DNA from: Bacteroidaceae bacterium
GTDB lineage: Bacteria > Bacteroidota > Bacteroidia > Bacteroidales > Bacteroidaceae
DNA length: 46,271 bases
Reading direction: 5' to 3'
Assembly: GCA_017647225.1 (NCBI GenBank)
Contig: JAGCLA010000021.1
Location: forward strand, 1-46,271
In this document: piece after piece, positions 22,057-33,100 of the stretch
How the letters are laid out: the number at the start of each line of letters is the position of its first letter
Position numbering within the stretch: the first letter of the stretch is position 1
The notes under the pieces: generated by a model
The model's database searches: none
What the model was told of the DNA's origin: nothing
Seen by the model: only the letters and a program-made list of their open reading frames with translations
Made by a program: the position numbers and the translations under genes

Positions 22057-23403
22057 ATGAAAATAGCAGTCGCAGGAACAGGATATGTCGGTTTAAGCAT
22101 CGCCACACTATTGGCACAGCACAACGAAGTTGTAGCCGTTGATGTCATTCCCGAAAAAGTCGAGAAGATAAACAACCGCATTTCACCAATCCAAGACGAA
22201 TATATCGAGAAATTCCTCGCCGAGAAAGAACTGAACCTGCGCGCTACGCTCGACGGCAGAGAGGCATACAGCGATGCCGAATTCATCGTCATTGCCGCCC
22301 CCACCAATTACGACCCACAAAAGAACTTCTTCGACACCCACCACATCGAAGATGTCATAGACCTCATACTTGAGGTAAACCCCGAAGCGACAATGGTAAT
22401 AAAAAGCACCATTCCTGTGGGTTATTGCCGTAGCCTCTATATAAAATACGCAAAGAAGTTCAAAGAAAACGGCTGGGACAGCACACACAAGTTCCGCTTA
22501 CTCTTCTCTCCCGAATTCTTGCGCGAAAGCAAAGCACTTTACGACAACCTCTACCCAAGCCGCATCATCGTCGGCCACCCCAAGATGATTAACCATAACG
22601 ACGAAGAGCGCGAAGCCAACAATGCCATCAAAGCCATTGCAGGCAACCATTTGAACGAAGCGGCACACACCTTCGCCAGCCTGTTGCAACAGGGAGCAAT
22701 CAAACAGGATATCCCTACCCTTTTCATGGGATTAAAGGAAGCCGAAGCTGTCAAGCTCTTCGCCAATACATACCTCGCTTTGCGCGTAAGCTACTTCAAT
22801 GAGCTCGACACATACGCCGAGATAAAAGGACTCGATTCCGCAGCCATCATACAAGGCGTAGGCCTTGACCCACGCATCGGCGACCACTACAACAACCCAT
22901 CGTTCGGCTACGGCGGTTATTGCTTGCCAAAGGACACCAAGCAGTTGCTTGCCAACTACCAGGAAGTACCGCAGAACATGATGAGCGCCATAGTAGAGAG
23001 CAACCGCACCCGTAAAGACTTCATAGCCGACCAGGTGCTCCGCATGGCTGGCTGGTACAGCTACAGCGAGAACAACCAATACGATTCATCGTTCAACGTT
23101 CATCGTTCATCGTTCACCGCCCCCACAATTGGCGTTTACCGCCTCACCATGAAAGCCGGTAGCGACAATTTCCGTCAGTCATCAATTCAGGGAGTAATGA
23201 AACGCATAAAAGCAAAGGGAGCAGAAGTCATCATCTACGAGCCGACCCTCGAAGACGGAACAACCTTCTTTGGTAGCCGTGTAGTCAACAACCTCAGCGA
23301 GTTCAAGCAACAGTCACAGGCAATCATCGCCAACCGCTACGACACCGTACTCGACGACGTCAAGGAGAAAGTATATACCCGCGACATATTCCAACGCGAC
23401 TAA
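22057..23403 (+). CDS. ugd: UDP-glucose 6-dehydrogenase
   Basis: Oxidises UDP-glucose to UDP-glucuronate with two NAD+, supplying an acidic sugar donor. The 448-residue protein has the N-terminal Rossmann motif GTGYVGLS (8-15), [28 protein letters not shown] and the catalytic Cys289 in [15 protein letters not shown], then the C-terminal UDP-binding half with [16 protein letters not shown] start at the ATG at 22057, where homology begins and downstream of the promoter. Residues about 343-354 (within [13 protein letters not shown]) are encoded by a period-7 array like those between genes further on; it falls in the variable linker before the C-terminal domain, so activity is likely kept. Confidence 0.94.
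23083..23118 (+). repeat. Period-7 array inside ugd
   Basis: Consecutive heptamers CGTTCAA, CGTTCAT, CGTTCAT, CGTTCAC follow CGATTCAT. Length keeps the frame; 21 bp of such repeat equals seven codons. Confidence 0.85.
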
Positions 23404-28073: not shown

Positions 28074-29075
28074 ATGCAAACAAAACATTTAGACGACATA
28101 TCAATTCTAAGAGTTTTTTGTATTCTCGTAGTAGTATTCTTTCATTGTTATGGGATGATGTATGCAGAAGCACATTTCCCGGAAACAATATCTGAATATA
28201 AGAAATTATACTTCATCCCTGTTCAATGCGTGTTTATAAACATCGCTATGCCAATGTTTGTATTTATCAGTGGCTACTTATTTGAATTCTTATTGCAAAA
28301 AGGCAAGTACCCAACTTGGGGCAATTTATTACAAAAGAAAGGAATAAGAATATTACTTCCCTATTTTGTTTTCGGTTTATTCTTTATGGCTACCACAAGA
28401 AACTGGAAACCATTTATTTTGCTTAATGGTGGATATTGGCATTTATGGTTTTTACCAATGCTTTTTTGGTGTTTCATATTAGGATATGCCATATACAAAA
28501 TGCAATTACGTCTTTGGGCAAAGTTGGTATTGGTAATTATAACATTTATATTCTCTTTAATACCCAAATTTATACCAACATGGTTGGGCTTACACAATAT
28601 TACAGTTTGGTTCTATTGGTTCTATTTAGGAATGTTGATTTATAAGTATCGCGATTCTTTATACTCCTATGTTAGAAAGTATAAATTATCTTTGCCATTG
28701 CTATTATCTTCCATTTCCATTATCGTTTTCTTGCCGGTAGAATATGGTGACAATACTTGGTTTGGTAATCTGGCTGTAACCATTTGTATTATATCTATCA
28801 GCTATCTAATGAACAATGCTGATTGGAGCAAGCACAAATTCACCTCTAAAATTGACAAATTTAGTTCTTATAGCTTTGGTATCTATATTTGGCATAATTG
28901 GGTTGCAATGATGCTTATATCCAAAACATCACAAAACATATTTGGTTTACCAACCCTGGTTACTAACCATGTCATTTTGTTTCCATTGTGCTTTAGTTTA
29001 ATAACTTTAGCTATCTCATGGGTTCTATCATGGGGTATGATGAAGACCAAAATTGGACGTTTTTTGATTGGATAA
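28074..29075 (+). CDS. AT3-family (OafA-like) membrane acyltransferase, first copy
   Basis: A 333-residue membrane protein with about ten helices. The first helix has ILRVFCILVVVFFHCYG with the family's catalytic His; later blocks FVFISGYLFEF, RILLPYFVFGLFF and the GGYWHLWFLPMLFW segment are typical of Acyltransferase_3. It should O-acetylate (or otherwise acylate) the glycan at the membrane using cytosolic acyl-CoA. Very AT-rich compared with wecB just downstream, which points to a module boundary at about 29.1 kb. Confidence 0.88.
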   Translation: MQTKHLDDISILRVFCILVVVFFHCYGMMYAEAHFPETISEYKKLYFIPVQCVFINIAMPMFVFISGYLFEFLLQKGKYPTWGNLLQKKGIRILLPYFVFGLFFMATTRNWKPFILLNGGYWHLWFLPMLFWCFILGYAIYKMQLRLWAKLVLVIITFIFSLIPKFIPTWLGLHNITVWFYWFYLGMLIYKYRDSLYSYVRKYKLSLPLLLSSISIIVFLPVEYGDNTWFGNLAVTICIISISYLMNNADWSKHKFTSKIDKFSSYSFGIYIWHNWVAMMLISKTSQNIFGLPTLVTNHVILFPLCFSLITLAISWVLSWGMMKTKIGRFLIG

Positions 29076-29110
29076 AAAATTACCACTGTAAACAATAACA
29101 GAATTAACAT

Positions 29111-30679
29111 ATGAAAACCATAATGCTCGTTTTCGGAACTCGCCCCGAGGCCATTAAAATGGCACCACTGGTCAAGGAATTCCAAAAGCACCCCGAAACA
29201 TTCAAGACAGTAGTATGCGTTACCGGTCAGCACCGCCAGATGCTCGACCAGGTGCTGCAACTCTTTGAAATAACACCCGAATACGACCTTAACATAATGA
29301 AGCAGGGACAGGACCTTTACGATGTCACTGCCCGCGTGCTCACAGGCATGCGCGACGTGCTGAAAGAGGTACAACCCGATGTCGTTCTTGTTCATGGTGA
29401 TACCACCACAAGTACCGCAGCTGCCCTTGCAGCCTTTTACCAGCAGATTCCGGTGGGGCATGTAGAGGCAGGCTTGCGCACACATAACATCTACAGCCCC
29501 TGGCCCGAGGAAATGAACCGTCAGATAACCGGTCGCATAGCAACATACAACTTTGCACCGACACCATTAAGCAAGGCCAATCTGCTACGCGAAGCTGTCA
29601 CAGAAGAGAGTATCACAGTCACAGGAAATACTGTAATAGATGCACTTTATTGGGTGGTAAACAAGATAAAGAATAACACAGCACTGAATGAGGAGTTACA
29701 GAAAGCCCTCTCGAATGCCGGATATGACGTAAACCGTCTGTCAGGAGACAAGAAGCTTGTACTCATTACAGGTCATCGACGCGAGAATTTCGGCGACGGA
29801 TTTATCAACATGTGTACAGCAATCAAAGATTTGACACAAAAGTACCCTGATGTGGATTTCGTATATCCCATGCACCTCAATCCCAATGTACGCAAACCGA
29901 TATATGAAGTATTTGGCCCCACCCCAACCCTCCCCAAAAGGGAGGGAGAAGTATATGGTTACCAAACTGCCGACCCTATACTATATGGTTTGTTAAAGGA
30001 TTTTGCCAAAGAGAACAAAGACAACGCGACAGATGCAGAAATCGCATTGTGGTCACTTTTGCGTAATGAGCAACTTGGCTACAACTTCCGTCGCCAGCAC
30101 ATTATAGACAAATATATTGTTGATTTTGTATGCTTGAAAAAGCAACTTATTGTAGAAGTAGACGGAGCCTACCACTCTGAATTGAAGCAAATAGAATACG
30201 ACAACGACCGCACAACTAGACTAAACGAGCTAGGTTTCACAGTAATCCGCTTCACAAACGAAGAAATCATAACAAACACCAAAGAAAGTATTAGCAAGAT
30301 AATGGAAGCACTCACTTCTACCCCCTCCCCTATTGGGGGAGGCCAGGTGGGGGCCAACATGTTCTTCATTGAGCCGCTTGAATATCTTTCATTCGTGTAT
30401 TTGATGGAAAAGAGCAATATAGTACTTACCGACAGCGGTGGTATACAGGAGGAAGCTCCGGGATTAGGTAAGCCCGTACTTGTTATGCGTGATACAACAG
30501 AACGTCCTGAAGCTTTAGAAGCCGGCACCGTCAAACTAGTTGGTACAAACTATGAAAAGATTATAGCCGAAGTATCGGCACTGCTCGACGATTCAGCATA
30601 CTATAACCAAATGAGCCAAGCAGTCAACCCTTATGGTGATGGAAAAGCTTGTGAACGTATTGTAAAATCATTAATATAA
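29111..30679 (+). CDS. wecB: UDP-N-acetylglucosamine 2-epimerase with in-frame DUF559 element
   Basis: Makes UDP-ManNAc from UDP-GlcNAc. Host residues 1-268 and 416-522 form a complete non-hydrolysing epimerase: FGTRPEAIKMAPLV near the start, HGDTTTSTAAALAAFY, HVEAGLRTHNIYSPWPEEMN, ITGHRRENFGDGF, then after the insert LTDSGGIQEEAPGLGKPVL and TTERPEALEAGTVKLVGT. The family is about 375 residues; this protein is 522. The excess is a 147-codon insertion (269-415) with inverted-repeat ends and an endonuclease domain; removing it gives 375 residues. The insertion falls in a loop between the LNPNVRKPIYEVF helix and the FFIEPLEYL strand, so the enzyme may tolerate it, but this is inference. No stop codon or frameshift interrupts the reading frame. 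Confidence 0.93.
   Translation: MKTIMLVFGTRPEAIKMAPLVKEFQKHPETFKTVVCVTGQHRQMLDQVLQLFEITPEYDLNIMKQGQDLYDVTARVLTGMRDVLKEVQPDVVLVHGDTTTSTAAALAAFYQQIPVGHVEAGLRTHNIYSPWPEEMNRQITGRIATYNFAPTPLSKANLLREAVTEESITVTGNTVIDALYWVVNKIKNNTALNEELQKALSNAGYDVNRLSGDKKLVLITGHRRENFGDGFINMCTAIKDLTQKYPDVDFVYPMHLNPNVRKPIYEVFGPTPTLPKREGEVYGYQTADPILYGLLKDFAKENKDNATDAEIALWSLLRNEQLGYNFRRQHIIDKYIVDFVCLKKQLIVEVDGAYHSELKQIEYDNDRTTRLNELGFTVIRFTNEEIITNTKESISKIMEALTSTPSPIGGGQVGANMFFIEPLEYLSFVYLMEKSNIVLTDSGGIQEEAPGLGKPVLVMRDTTERPEALEAGTVKLVGTNYEKIIAEVSALLDDSAYYNQMSQAVNPYGDGKACERIVKSLI
29915..29952 (+). repeat. Left terminal inverted repeat of the DUF559 element
   Basis: Begins GGCCCCACCCC, contains an internal hairpin CCCTCCC (29928-29934) / GGGAGGG (29940-29946) and ends AGAAGT. 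The reverse complement of the right end has the same order of blocks. Confidence 0.85.
30314..30355 (-). repeat. Right terminal inverted repeat of the DUF559 element
   Basis: Read on the minus strand it starts GGCCCCCACC, has an internal hairpin (CCTCCCC 30324-30330 with GGGGAGG 30336-30342 on the plus strand) and ends AGAAGT, matching the left repeat with small indels. Confidence 0.85.
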
Positions 30680-30683
30680 TTAA

Positions 30684-31910
30684 ATGAAAGCATTATTAAT
30701 AACAATTGGTTATCTACCATATACATTCTCTGAAGCTTTATGTAATGCAAAATTGGTATATGCTTTGCAACAAAAAGGTTGGGATGTTGATGTTATTTCT
30801 CGAATTGATGATGGCACCACTTATTGTAGAGAATGGCAAGAACCATGGTTATGTCTTAAGCCTAATGTGCATGAAATAAAGTATCATCTAGGAAATAAAG
30901 TTTCTCGCACATTGGATTTGATACGCTCAACTATTCAAATGGGAGGATATCCGTTAGAAGGTATCCGCTGGGCACGCCGTGCATACCAAAAGGCTGTAGC
31001 ATTGCACAAAGAAAAGCATTACGATGTTATCCTTACACGTTCACCAAGTGATATTCCTCATATTATAGGATATAAATTAAAGGAATGCTTTGGTGTGCGT
31101 TGGATTGCAAATTGGAACGACCCTTCTGCTACTATCTGGCCAGAACCATACACACATCATTTTTCTTCATTAAAGAAAAAAATGATGCATAGCTATACTG
31201 TAAAATGTTTGTGCAATGCCGATATTAACACATTCCCATCACAGTCGTTACTAGACCATTTCATTGCACATTTCCCCTTTTTGCGACAATTACATACAGA
31301 GGTTATTCCACATATTGCATTAAGCGAAACACTATATACACCCCAAAAACGAGAAAAGAAAGACAAGCTATACTTATGCCATTCCGGTAATCTTTCAACC
31401 GAACGTAATCCGGAATTATTATTCTGTGCTATGCGTGAAATAATTGATGAGGGTTATAACCACATACAATTGGATATAATGGGACGTGTTAATGAATATA
31501 CACAACAGCTGATTGACAAGTATCGTTTAGCAGAACACGTAAAGAGTGCCGGCTCATATCCATATATGGAAGCAATACATCTATTGCAGGAATACGATGT
31601 CTTAGTTCTTCTTGAAGCTAGAATGAAGCATGGAATCTTTTTCGCGAGCAAATTTACCGATTATGCACAAAGCGGACGTCCCATATTGGCTGTATCTCCT
31701 AAAAATGGTTTCGCACATGACATGCTTTCTCAACATGGAGGTGGAATAGCTGTAGATAATGAAGACGTTCAAGATATAAAACGAGGACTATTACTTCTAT
31801 ACAACCATTGGAAAACAGGAAGTATTGACAACAAATTTTCCACACATAAATTATTTTCTCAATTTGCAGCCCATACGGTTATTAATATATATAATCAGCT
31901 ATTGAAATAA
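30684..31910 (+). CDS. GT4-like glycosyltransferase
   Basis: A 408-residue GT-B fold protein. The N-terminal domain begins MKALLITIGYLPYTFSEALCNAKLVYAL and carries WIANWNDPSATIWPEPY; the C-terminal domain has LYLCHSGNLSTERNPELL, LDIMGRVNEYTQQLIDKY and LLEARMKHGIFFASKFTDYAQSGRPILAVSP. The usual EAMA/E-x7-E motif is replaced by FASKFTDYAQSGRPI, as in WcaI/WfaQ-like enzymes. Starts 4 bp after wecB and is more AT-rich. Acceptor and donor are unknown; ManNAc from the neighbouring wecB product is one candidate. Confidence 0.82.
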   Translation: MKALLITIGYLPYTFSEALCNAKLVYALQQKGWDVDVISRIDDGTTYCREWQEPWLCLKPNVHEIKYHLGNKVSRTLDLIRSTIQMGGYPLEGIRWARRAYQKAVALHKEKHYDVILTRSPSDIPHIIGYKLKECFGVRWIANWNDPSATIWPEPYTHHFSSLKKKMMHSYTVKCLCNADINTFPSQSLLDHFIAHFPFLRQLHTEVIPHIALSETLYTPQKREKKDKLYLCHSGNLSTERNPELLFCAMREIIDEGYNHIQLDIMGRVNEYTQQLIDKYRLAEHVKSAGSYPYMEAIHLLQEYDVLVLLEARMKHGIFFASKFTDYAQSGRPILAVSPKNGFAHDMLSQHGGGIAVDNEDVQDIKRGLLLLYNHWKTGSIDNKFSTHKLFSQFAAHTVINIYNQLLK

Positions 31911-31939: not shown

Positions 31940-33100
31940 ATGAAAGCCCTTATATGCATACCCTGCCTGTTGACAGGTGGAACAGAAATACAAACCCTCA
32001 ACACCGTGCAAGCCTTAGTACAAGGTGGGCACGGTGTTACTGTGGCATGCTATTTCGAGCATACACCAGATATGGTGGCTCGTTATCGTAAGGCTGGAGC
32101 AAATGTTGTGCTGTTCTCACCAGATGGCACCAGACCAACCGGCTTTCGCACTATAATATTCCTTTACAGGCATTTGCGTCGAATAGTTAAGCAACTACGC
32201 CCCAATGTTACACACGTGCAATACATGGCACCCGGAGCAACGGTTATTCTGTTGTTATGGTTTATGGGAGTAAAGAATATTATTACCACCGCACATACAG
32301 CTGCAGATATATACAAAGACCTGCGTCTTATTCACTTTATACAGCGTCACTGCGTAAGAGCTTTTACTTGTATAACTGAGCTTGCAGAAAAAAGTTTTTT
32401 CGGCACTTCGCAACTATATACGCCAGAAACGAAACTTAAAAAGAGAAACCATTTTACAATACATAATTGTTTAACGAGGAACGAGGAACGAGGAACGAGG
32501 AACGGACAAAAACCATGCCTTTCATCGCTCAACGTTAATCGTTCAACGTTCAACGTTCAACGTTTCACACTTGGCGTCGTCAGTCGCTTGGAAACTATAA
32601 AAGGTATGGATTTAGTAGTTCCTGCGTTTGCTGAAGTTTTGAAACAGCACCCCGACACACGCCTTGTTGTGGTAGGTGATGGCTCTTTACGCTCTGCAAT
32701 GGAACAACAAGTTATTGAGTTAAGATGCAATGACAAAATAACTTGGGCTGGTCGTCAGCCACAAGAGGAACTTAACAAATGGTATAGCCAAATGGATATA
32801 GTGCTTATGCCATCGCGTAGCGAAGGGTTTGGACTTACAGCCATAGAGGCTATGGCTAACGGTTGCGTAGTGGTAGCATCAAATATAGGTGGCTTGCCTG
32901 AGGTTGTACATGACAAAATTTGTGGTTTACTACACCGAAGCGAGGATACAACCGACATGGCAGATAAAATTTCTTCGCTTATAAGTAACGAAGCAACATA
33001 TAACCAATTACGTACACAATCGCTTCACGAAGTGGAAAAATATAGCTTCGAGCGATATGCAGAATTAATTAATGATATGTATGAAAAGTGTAAAGTGTAG
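31940..33100 (+). CDS. GT4 glycosyltransferase carrying period-7 arrays in its linker
   Basis: A 386-residue GT-B protein: MKALICIPCLLTGGTEIQTLNTVQALVQGGH (acceptor domain with the GGTE glycine motif), then LGVVSRLETIKGMDLVVPAF, VVVGDGSLRSAMEQQV and PSRSEGFGLTAIEAMANGCVVVAS with the intact E-x7-E pair. Between the two domains, residues about 179-209 (EERGTRNG ... NVNRSTFNVQRFT) are encoded by two period-7 arrays. This lies at the interdomain linker where length variation is tolerable. The C-terminal residues KCKV and the stop codon are encoded by the 5' edge of the next intergenic array. Confidence 0.85.
   Translation: MKALICIPCLLTGGTEIQTLNTVQALVQGGHGVTVACYFEHTPDMVARYRKAGANVVLFSPDGTRPTGFRTIIFLYRHLRRIVKQLRPNVTHVQYMAPGATVILLLWFMGVKNIITTAHTAADIYKDLRLIHFIQRHCVRAFTCITELAEKSFFGTSQLYTPETKLKKRNHFTIHNCLTRNEERGTRNGQKPCLSSLNVNRSTFNVQRFTLGVVSRLETIKGMDLVVPAFAEVLKQHPDTRLVVVGDGSLRSAMEQQVIELRCNDKITWAGRQPQEELNKWYSQMDIVLMPSRSEGFGLTAIEAMANGCVVVASNIGGLPEVVHDKICGLLHRSEDTTDMADKISSLISNEATYNQLRTQSLHEVEKYSFERYAELINDMYEKCKV
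32474..32567 (+). repeat. Period-7 arrays inside a glycosyltransferase gene
   Basis: ACGAGGA is repeated four times exactly (32474-32501), then ACGGACA; after 17 bp come CGCTCAA, CGTTAAT, CGTTCAA x3 and CGTTTCA (32526-32567). The cores GAACG and CGTTC are complementary, so the two halves can pair in register. Confidence 0.9.

Follow-up and report, generated by a model that had tools for sequence, protein, structure and literature searches.

How can the gene of a conserved enzyme carry an entire nuclease-coding element in its reading frame and stay open from end to end? This question is raised by wecB in a 46,271-nucleotide stretch of DNA from a Bacteroidaceae bacterium (contig JAGCLA010000021.1; the whole stretch is called the window below), where the first-pass annotation had noted an insert of 441 bp and likened it to a homing nuclease acting without an intein or intron. 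The features of the locus are:

29111..30679, + strand: wecB reading frame with the nested element, 522 codons plus stop
29111..29914, + strand: N-terminal part of WecB, aligning with residues 3-261 of E. coli WecB (1f6d)
29915..30355, + strand: element of 441 bp nested in frame, its boundaries placed to within a few bases
29915..29951, + strand: left terminal repeat with hairpin 29928-29946, from gapped alignment and folding
29960..30313, + strand: nuclease region (YQTADP...), with the DUF559 core at 29996-30313
30315..30355, + strand: right terminal repeat with hairpin 30324-30342, from gapped alignment and folding
30356..30679, + strand: C-terminal part of WecB and stop, aligning with residues 264-369 of 1f6d

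The outer parts of the frame are identified as WecB by TIGR00236 (498.9 bits, cut-off 210), and a Pfam scan of all 522 codons lists only Epimerase_2 (E 2e-117, in two stretches), DUF559 (E 8e-34, residues 296-401) and MTES_1575. Frame residues 4-270 and 416-521 align with residues 3-261 and 264-369 of 1f6d, which places the insert where E. coli WecB has two residues. In the host frame the insert is free of stops, whereas each of the other five frames has 3-12 of them, and with Epimerase_2 on both sides the claim of a 441-bp stretch lying open inside wecB is borne out. Openness taken alone is weak evidence: of 6548 segments of the window with the same length of 441 bp, 1229 are likewise free of stops in a given frame. 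The ends of the insert have a G+C content of 61% and 71%, whereas its interior has 40%, as does the whole window. Excision leaves 375 codons, as had been annotated, but this is not the normal family length it was taken for: 12 of the 16 empty alleles of the same genus have 382-384 codons (overall range 379-389). Hence, about eight loop codons were replaced, and the insertion did not cleanly interrupt the loop. The same genome possesses a second, empty wecB (contig C5:88944-90110 of G000, within L050), so the filled copy may not be the sole source of the enzyme.

Sequence comparisons identify the predicted nuclease as a Vsr-like DUF559 protein. Its membership of DUF559 (PF04480) is scored at 116.2 bits over a curated cut-off of 20.6, which confirms the annotated intact domain; the Vsr mismatch endonuclease model TIGR00632 gives 17.7 bits for the nuclease region and 19.2 bits for the whole frame, below its cut-off of 97.85. 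Residues D43, E54, D56, G57, H60, D69, R85 and N88 are invariant in the 77-78 rows, of 78, that cover them, and by analogy with PD-(D/E)XK and Vsr enzymes they are the putative catalytic residues. The closest solved chains are 3hrl (E 2.4e-28) and then 3r3p, a 'Mobile intron protein' (E 6.9e-6), which we take to be the EDxHD homing endonuclease I-Bth0305I; PADLOC adds an HEase match to the nuclease (E 1.3e-5). No second DUF559 was found in the window's own genome, no phage relative in the collection searched and no wecB relative in viral contigs. Plasmid matches comprise 31 records, each below 60% identity.

Terminal inverted repeats of about 40 bp with hairpins had also been annotated, and this description stands in part. 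The repeats match in 31 of 36 aligned columns with small gaps allowed, and an ungapped repeat search of the window did not report them. Their inverted-repeat score of 17 is reached by none of 3000 random window pairs of the same spacing (maximum 11) and by none of 2000 shuffles. Both hairpins have 7-bp stems, of which the left one is better folded than most of its shuffles (z -1.83) and the right one is not (z -0.20). Across the family, once short and duplicate copies had been dropped, 136 of 204 DUF559 copies have inverted flanks scoring at least 30. This score is reached by 1 of 187 control stretches taken from 700-960 bp away and by 112 of 1020 swapped left/right flank pairs; the window copy scores 30, L003 28 and L004 14. 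A strict three-part palindrome (score at least 12) is present in 17 of 77 left and 16 of 78 right flanks and in none of 155 shuffled flanks, the right end of the window element scoring 0; as most flanks fail this strict form, the alignment-based test was used. The ends of many elements have a common build, an outer C-rich block, a short spacer and a hairpin, with no common sequence, and in the metH elements the two ends are nearly perfect mirrors. Palindromes of this pattern gave 38 matches in 6 of 16 genomes (reversed control 0), at least 3 of the 38 lying beside or at the end of DUF559 copies. The proposed search for other copies of the terminal repeats had a mixed outcome: palindromes free of a nuclease occur in other genomes, a few of them in long frames, whereas this pattern is absent from the window's own genome, where a separate palindrome search gave four matches, three inside the element and one elsewhere with 3 mismatches. 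Two nuclease-less palindromes inside long frames are those of L146 and L147, whose host frames look by eye like, and are presumably, GpsA (with the palindrome at the N-terminus) and a pullulanase. Elsewhere in the window, a second insertion-like in-frame stretch with 7-bp tandem repeats (GAGGAAC, GTTCAAC) is located at 32470-32565 in a glycosyltransferase frame (31940-33100); further repeats of the GTTCAAC type are present at 23084-23114 and, less exactly, on contig C8 (3 mismatches).

Of 101 related genomes searched for wecB, 74 yielded a match; 30 loci were read (L002-L031), 23 of them from the same genus. Among these 23, 16 are empty, three (the window copy L002, L003 and L004) have the nuclease in this same loop, one has the ends only and three have another short insert. 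Also, L042, on a cut contig, contains a partial nuclease with the same right junction as the wecB element. The ends-only allele, L006, retains both ends of an L004-like element and has lost the nuclease with the frame kept, and L004 and L006 are adjacent on the wecB host tree (support 87). In L005, L010 and L016, a different short in-frame insert (EHVVNKE...) occupies the same loop, suggesting that this loop may be a general landing place. As 16 of the 23 same-genus alleles are empty, comparison of the alleles indicates that the DUF559 domain is not an ancestral part of this wecB, one of two findings that would have spoken against the first-pass annotation. The other, loss of essential host residues in empty alleles, was not seen either: filled and empty alleles differ in a variable loop (FG-EDLSNLG-NMFFIEPL), and host dN is low in the filled ones. 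For pairs of L002, L003 and L004, dN is 0.08-0.19 in the insert and 0.06-0.10 in the host, dS being very high or undefined, and these low values suggest that insert and host are both constrained. On the host tree, which left out 3 of the 30 loci, the nuclease state needs three changes, one of them forced, a pattern compatible with gain as well as loss.

The family extends far beyond wecB. Matches to PF04480 at E ≤ 0.001, weak partial ones included, are present in 24 of 44 genomes of the genus, 152 of 399 of the family sample and 138 of 247 of the phylum sample; weak partial matches are also found in frames of about 600 codons. The best 80 of at least 580 relatives, chosen by nuclease likeness and not by frame, hold 82 copies, of which 49 are internal, 8 N-terminal, 3 C-terminal and 22 free-standing. 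Many other census loci were chosen for long frames, so that their class proportions are not frequencies and out-of-frame insertions would escape. For five other fusions the host was confirmed by Pfam: MetH (L262), RecG (L196), LeuRS (L036), WecB (L188, from the goat-colon Bacteroidaceae bacterium RGIG2154) and a class I tRNA synthetase (L195), which we take for IleRS. By recognised motifs, further internal hosts are presumably ValRS, MetRS, a second LeuRS loop, SpoIID, NAD-epimerase, MiaB and HsdR/HsdM, the N-terminal hosts presumably include guanylate kinase, leuB, leuC, ispF and RNase H, and the C-terminal ones ispG and others. Judged from these sequences, palindrome-flanked relatives sit in frame in unrelated core genes across the phylum. 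Cultured strains are among the carriers, with MetH copies in Flavobacterium cucumis DSM 18830, Winogradskyella sediminis DSM 28134 and Salegentibacter holothuriorum DSM 23405 and a RecG copy in Tenacibaculum gallaicum DSM 18841. A single MetH frame (L240:3-2459) has DUF559 copies nested at two separate positions. Nested DUF559 domains were also seen in RecG of several flavobacterial genera (L194, L196, L211, L229, L237, L241, L252, L256 and others); in the nuclease tree these fall into a single group, and they are possibly domesticated and inherited.

Nested and free-standing copies differ in their translation signals. An ATG at a distance of 7-30 codons ahead of the core is the rule in free-standing (45 of 52) and N-terminal copies (23 of 25) and the exception in internal (31 of 113) and C-terminal ones (5 of 18; Fisher p 3e-18 for the contrast between classes). 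These counts compare classes in a long-frame-enriched set of 211 distinct copies, of which three were put aside as cut and from which short and duplicate copies had been dropped. Where internal copies do have an ATG, it is at -10 or -11 in 22 of 31, at a conserved YxTA motif in which x or its neighbour is Met in many copies. Upstream of the Pfam core in the window insert, a TTG at 29990 is the sole in-frame codon that resembles a start. Free-standing copies keep their own start and stop, whereas internal and N-terminal classes lack a nuclease stop by definition; L074 is apparently an N-terminal fusion whose upstream frame is spurious. With the usual start and an own stop absent, a nested nuclease would hardly be made except as part of the host protein. 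The absence of these signals may reflect later change or a filter on survivors.

The history of the insertions can be followed best in metH. In the genus of G736, which is probably Flavobacterium, as one member's MetH is identical to that of F. cucumis, MetH was matched in 139 of 150 genomes, and the 40 alleles read together with L262 comprise 14 filled and 27 empty ones. Filled and empty alleles of one site thus coexist among near relatives, as is the case for homing genes. On the host tree the metH state needs 9 changes, 7 of them forced by well-supported branches, versus a shuffled mean of 11.9; 12 of 500 shuffles were as low, the filled alleles being somewhat clustered. The linker EASKDGKSSSAGK or variants of it is common to the empty alleles and is missing from F. 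cucumis, of which a relative, G908 (98% identity over the first 406 MetH residues), has an empty metH. The insertion point shifts by a few codons between alleles, a poor fit with exact cutting. Target-site duplications, as expected of a DDE-type insertion sequence, were not seen by eye at the metH junctions, where alleles have diverged enough to hide short ones.

Synonymous divergence was compared between inserts and hosts in pairs of filled metH alleles. The initial ranking of pairs went by how alike their inserts are, a choice biased towards young inserts, and for this reason all 91 pairs and equal-length host stretches were examined afterwards. In the two closest pairs by host identity, the insert is less diverged than its host: dS is 0.49 versus 1.02 for L274-L280 and 0.42 versus 0.79 for L262-L277, and none of 61 and of 36 equal-length host stretches, respectively, is as low. 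The same holds for L270-L271 (0.59 versus 1.94; 0 of 61 stretches), whereas the third closest pair, L268-L278, does not have a younger insert (1.16 versus 1.11; 27 of 62 stretches as low). Insert dS is below host dS in 33 of the 35 usable pairs, most of them near saturation, the other 56 of the 91 lacking a usable dS, and just 16 of the 91 pairs are more similar in insert than in host DNA. These estimates indicate that some metH inserts are younger than the split of their hosts. Insert and host distances also correlate (Mantel r 0.56), suggesting that part of the insert history is vertical; hence, spread between alleles and descent both seem to act in metH. Median dN/dS is 0.29 for the nested MetH nuclease versus 0.055 for the host (35 of 91 pairs usable), which shows purifying selection on the nuclease.

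Similar patterns are found at other sites. LeuRS was matched in 240 of 247 genomes of the order; in 22 alleles chosen for reading by span or kinship, nine are filled, from eight family codes, and two of these families have empty alleles too. In eight the insert lies in the loop before FTTR(P/A)DT, and L121 has it in the same place by coordinates. L111 and L121 retain nuclease remnants in frame from which the EVDG...H motif is gone. On a tree of 108 nuclease cores, host sites need 26 changes versus a shuffled mean of 77.4. This tree kept 108 of 207 copies (copies labelled alone or other, those from hosts with fewer than three rows and short or duplicate ones were left out), and an earlier tree left out L111, L121 and L042. 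The nuclease trees have few columns and many open forks, and the comparison of host site with taxon is rough, group codes and NCBI names of one family being counted as different. The grouping by host site fits site-specific lineages, with descent contributing.

Hence, we hypothesize that the wecB insert is a Vsr-like DUF559 nuclease between palindromic ends and one copy of a phylum-wide mobile element that enters loops or linkers of conserved proteins in frame. The host protein would tolerate the insert because the place of insertion is permissive, and the nuclease, having no usual start before its core and no stop, would probably be made only as a domain of that protein. The nuclease or the fusion would then probably cut an empty allele at the matching place, and repair from the filled allele would copy the element across, as for homing endonucleases but without an intron or intein. 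Copies would later decay in frame, by loss of the catalytic motif or down to the ends. Compatibility with the host would thus come from the place of insertion and the open frame and not from splicing; a Pfam scan found no splicing (Hint) domain in the window frame, and no catalytic intron RNA was matched in Rfam up to E 1 in 29000-31000. We infer DNA cleavage, homing, translation as one polypeptide, host activity of the fusions and any role of the palindromes. The likeness to a homing nuclease proposed in the first-pass annotation gains support from the mixed filled and empty alleles, the grouping by host site and the fact that some inserts postdate the split of their hosts. The reading we favour, with fair though incomplete confidence, is that of a homing-like mobile nuclease element kept in conserved genes as a tolerated loop domain and not spliced out. 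The wider proposal of a selfish class that lives in essential genes without splicing, sheds its start and stop, becomes a loop domain and homes into empty alleles across the phylum, repeatedly in aminoacyl-tRNA synthetases, MetH, RecG and envelope enzymes, is a more tentative one, for which we see about as much to doubt as to believe.

Other histories could leave some of the same traces. The insert might be a passive REP- or RPE-like palindrome moved by another enzyme, with DUF559 as cargo and the in-frame copies as survivors of selection. The nuclease-less palindromes found in some of the same genomes, a few inside long frames, and the ends-only copy L006 agree with such an element, and intragenic REPs (PMC3733652) and in-frame RPEs (PMC10969869) are described in the available parts of these sources. 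We nevertheless consider it unlikely, since the nuclease residues are conserved and the nested MetH copies evolve at a dN/dS of 0.29, the nucleases group by host site, and the palindrome pattern has no match in the five same-genus genomes tested, that of the window included. Still less probable is a domain fusion for the benefit of the host, in which the nuclease was recruited for repair, defence or regulation and inherited with its gene. The single RecG group of many flavobacterial genera, the correlated insert and host distances in MetH and the kinship to Vsr-like proteins such as VsrA (PMC12907096, available part) would suit recruitment, but the host genes are functionally unrelated, filled and empty alleles are intermixed in one genus, and dead or ends-only copies persist.

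Removal of the insert before the protein works, by an unknown intron, a splicing protein element or ribosomal bypassing, appears very improbable. The insert RNA does have a better fold than its shuffles (z -4.1), one in which both ends pair, yet neither Rfam nor Pfam yields a candidate for splicing, and the frame is open and under selection through the insert. An assembly artefact or a chimaera in a metagenome bin deserves hardly any weight: the window comes from a draft genome (56 contigs, 88% complete), but the same junctions in other genomes and the same arrangement in cultured strains, all independent, refute it. The favoured reading thus remains that of a homing-like mobile element retained as a loop domain. 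If true, it would alter the picture in which self-splicing sequences free homing endonucleases to invade conserved genes (PMC3943268, available text), as a widespread family would invade such genes without splicing, and this can be tested in cultured strains. It would also provide natural proteins in which a loop accommodates an extra domain of about 110 residues, make DUF559 a candidate enzyme for intragenic palindromes and give a warning for the annotation of aminoacyl-tRNA synthetases, MetH and RecG in the phylum. A search of the open-access literature, a scope outside which most subscription papers and preprints lie, and with sources seen in part, found no paper on DUF559 as a mobile in-frame element.

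Several known systems share parts of this arrangement. VsrA of Caulobacter has a Vsr-like DUF559 domain, but it is linked to cytosine methylation, and the available part of its description mentions neither palindromes nor nesting (PMC12907096). I-Bth0305I has a related nuclease core and likewise occurs in filled and empty alleles of conserved genes; in contrast, it is a group I intron endonuclease with an extended DNA-binding part, according to the accessible text (PMC3943268), whereas here no intron was found and the core has about 110 residues. Inteins with homing endonucleases also place a nuclease in frame inside conserved enzymes and have it translated with the host, as is presumed here, but they carry a splicing domain, and none was found in the window frame. 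In REP/RAYT systems the gene of a DNA-cutting enzyme lies between palindromes and copies are intragenic, as far as the source was available (PMC3733652); the enclosed enzyme there is a tyrosine transposase, whereas here it is DUF559, between G+C-rich ends that differ between elements. Rickettsia palindromic elements are likewise palindromes in frame in unrelated protein genes, and all of this, inverted ends, an open frame and unrelated hosts, recurs here. However, in the accessible part of their description they measure about 150 bp and encode a short peptide (PMC10969869), whereas the element in wecB spans 441 bp and encodes a conserved nuclease.
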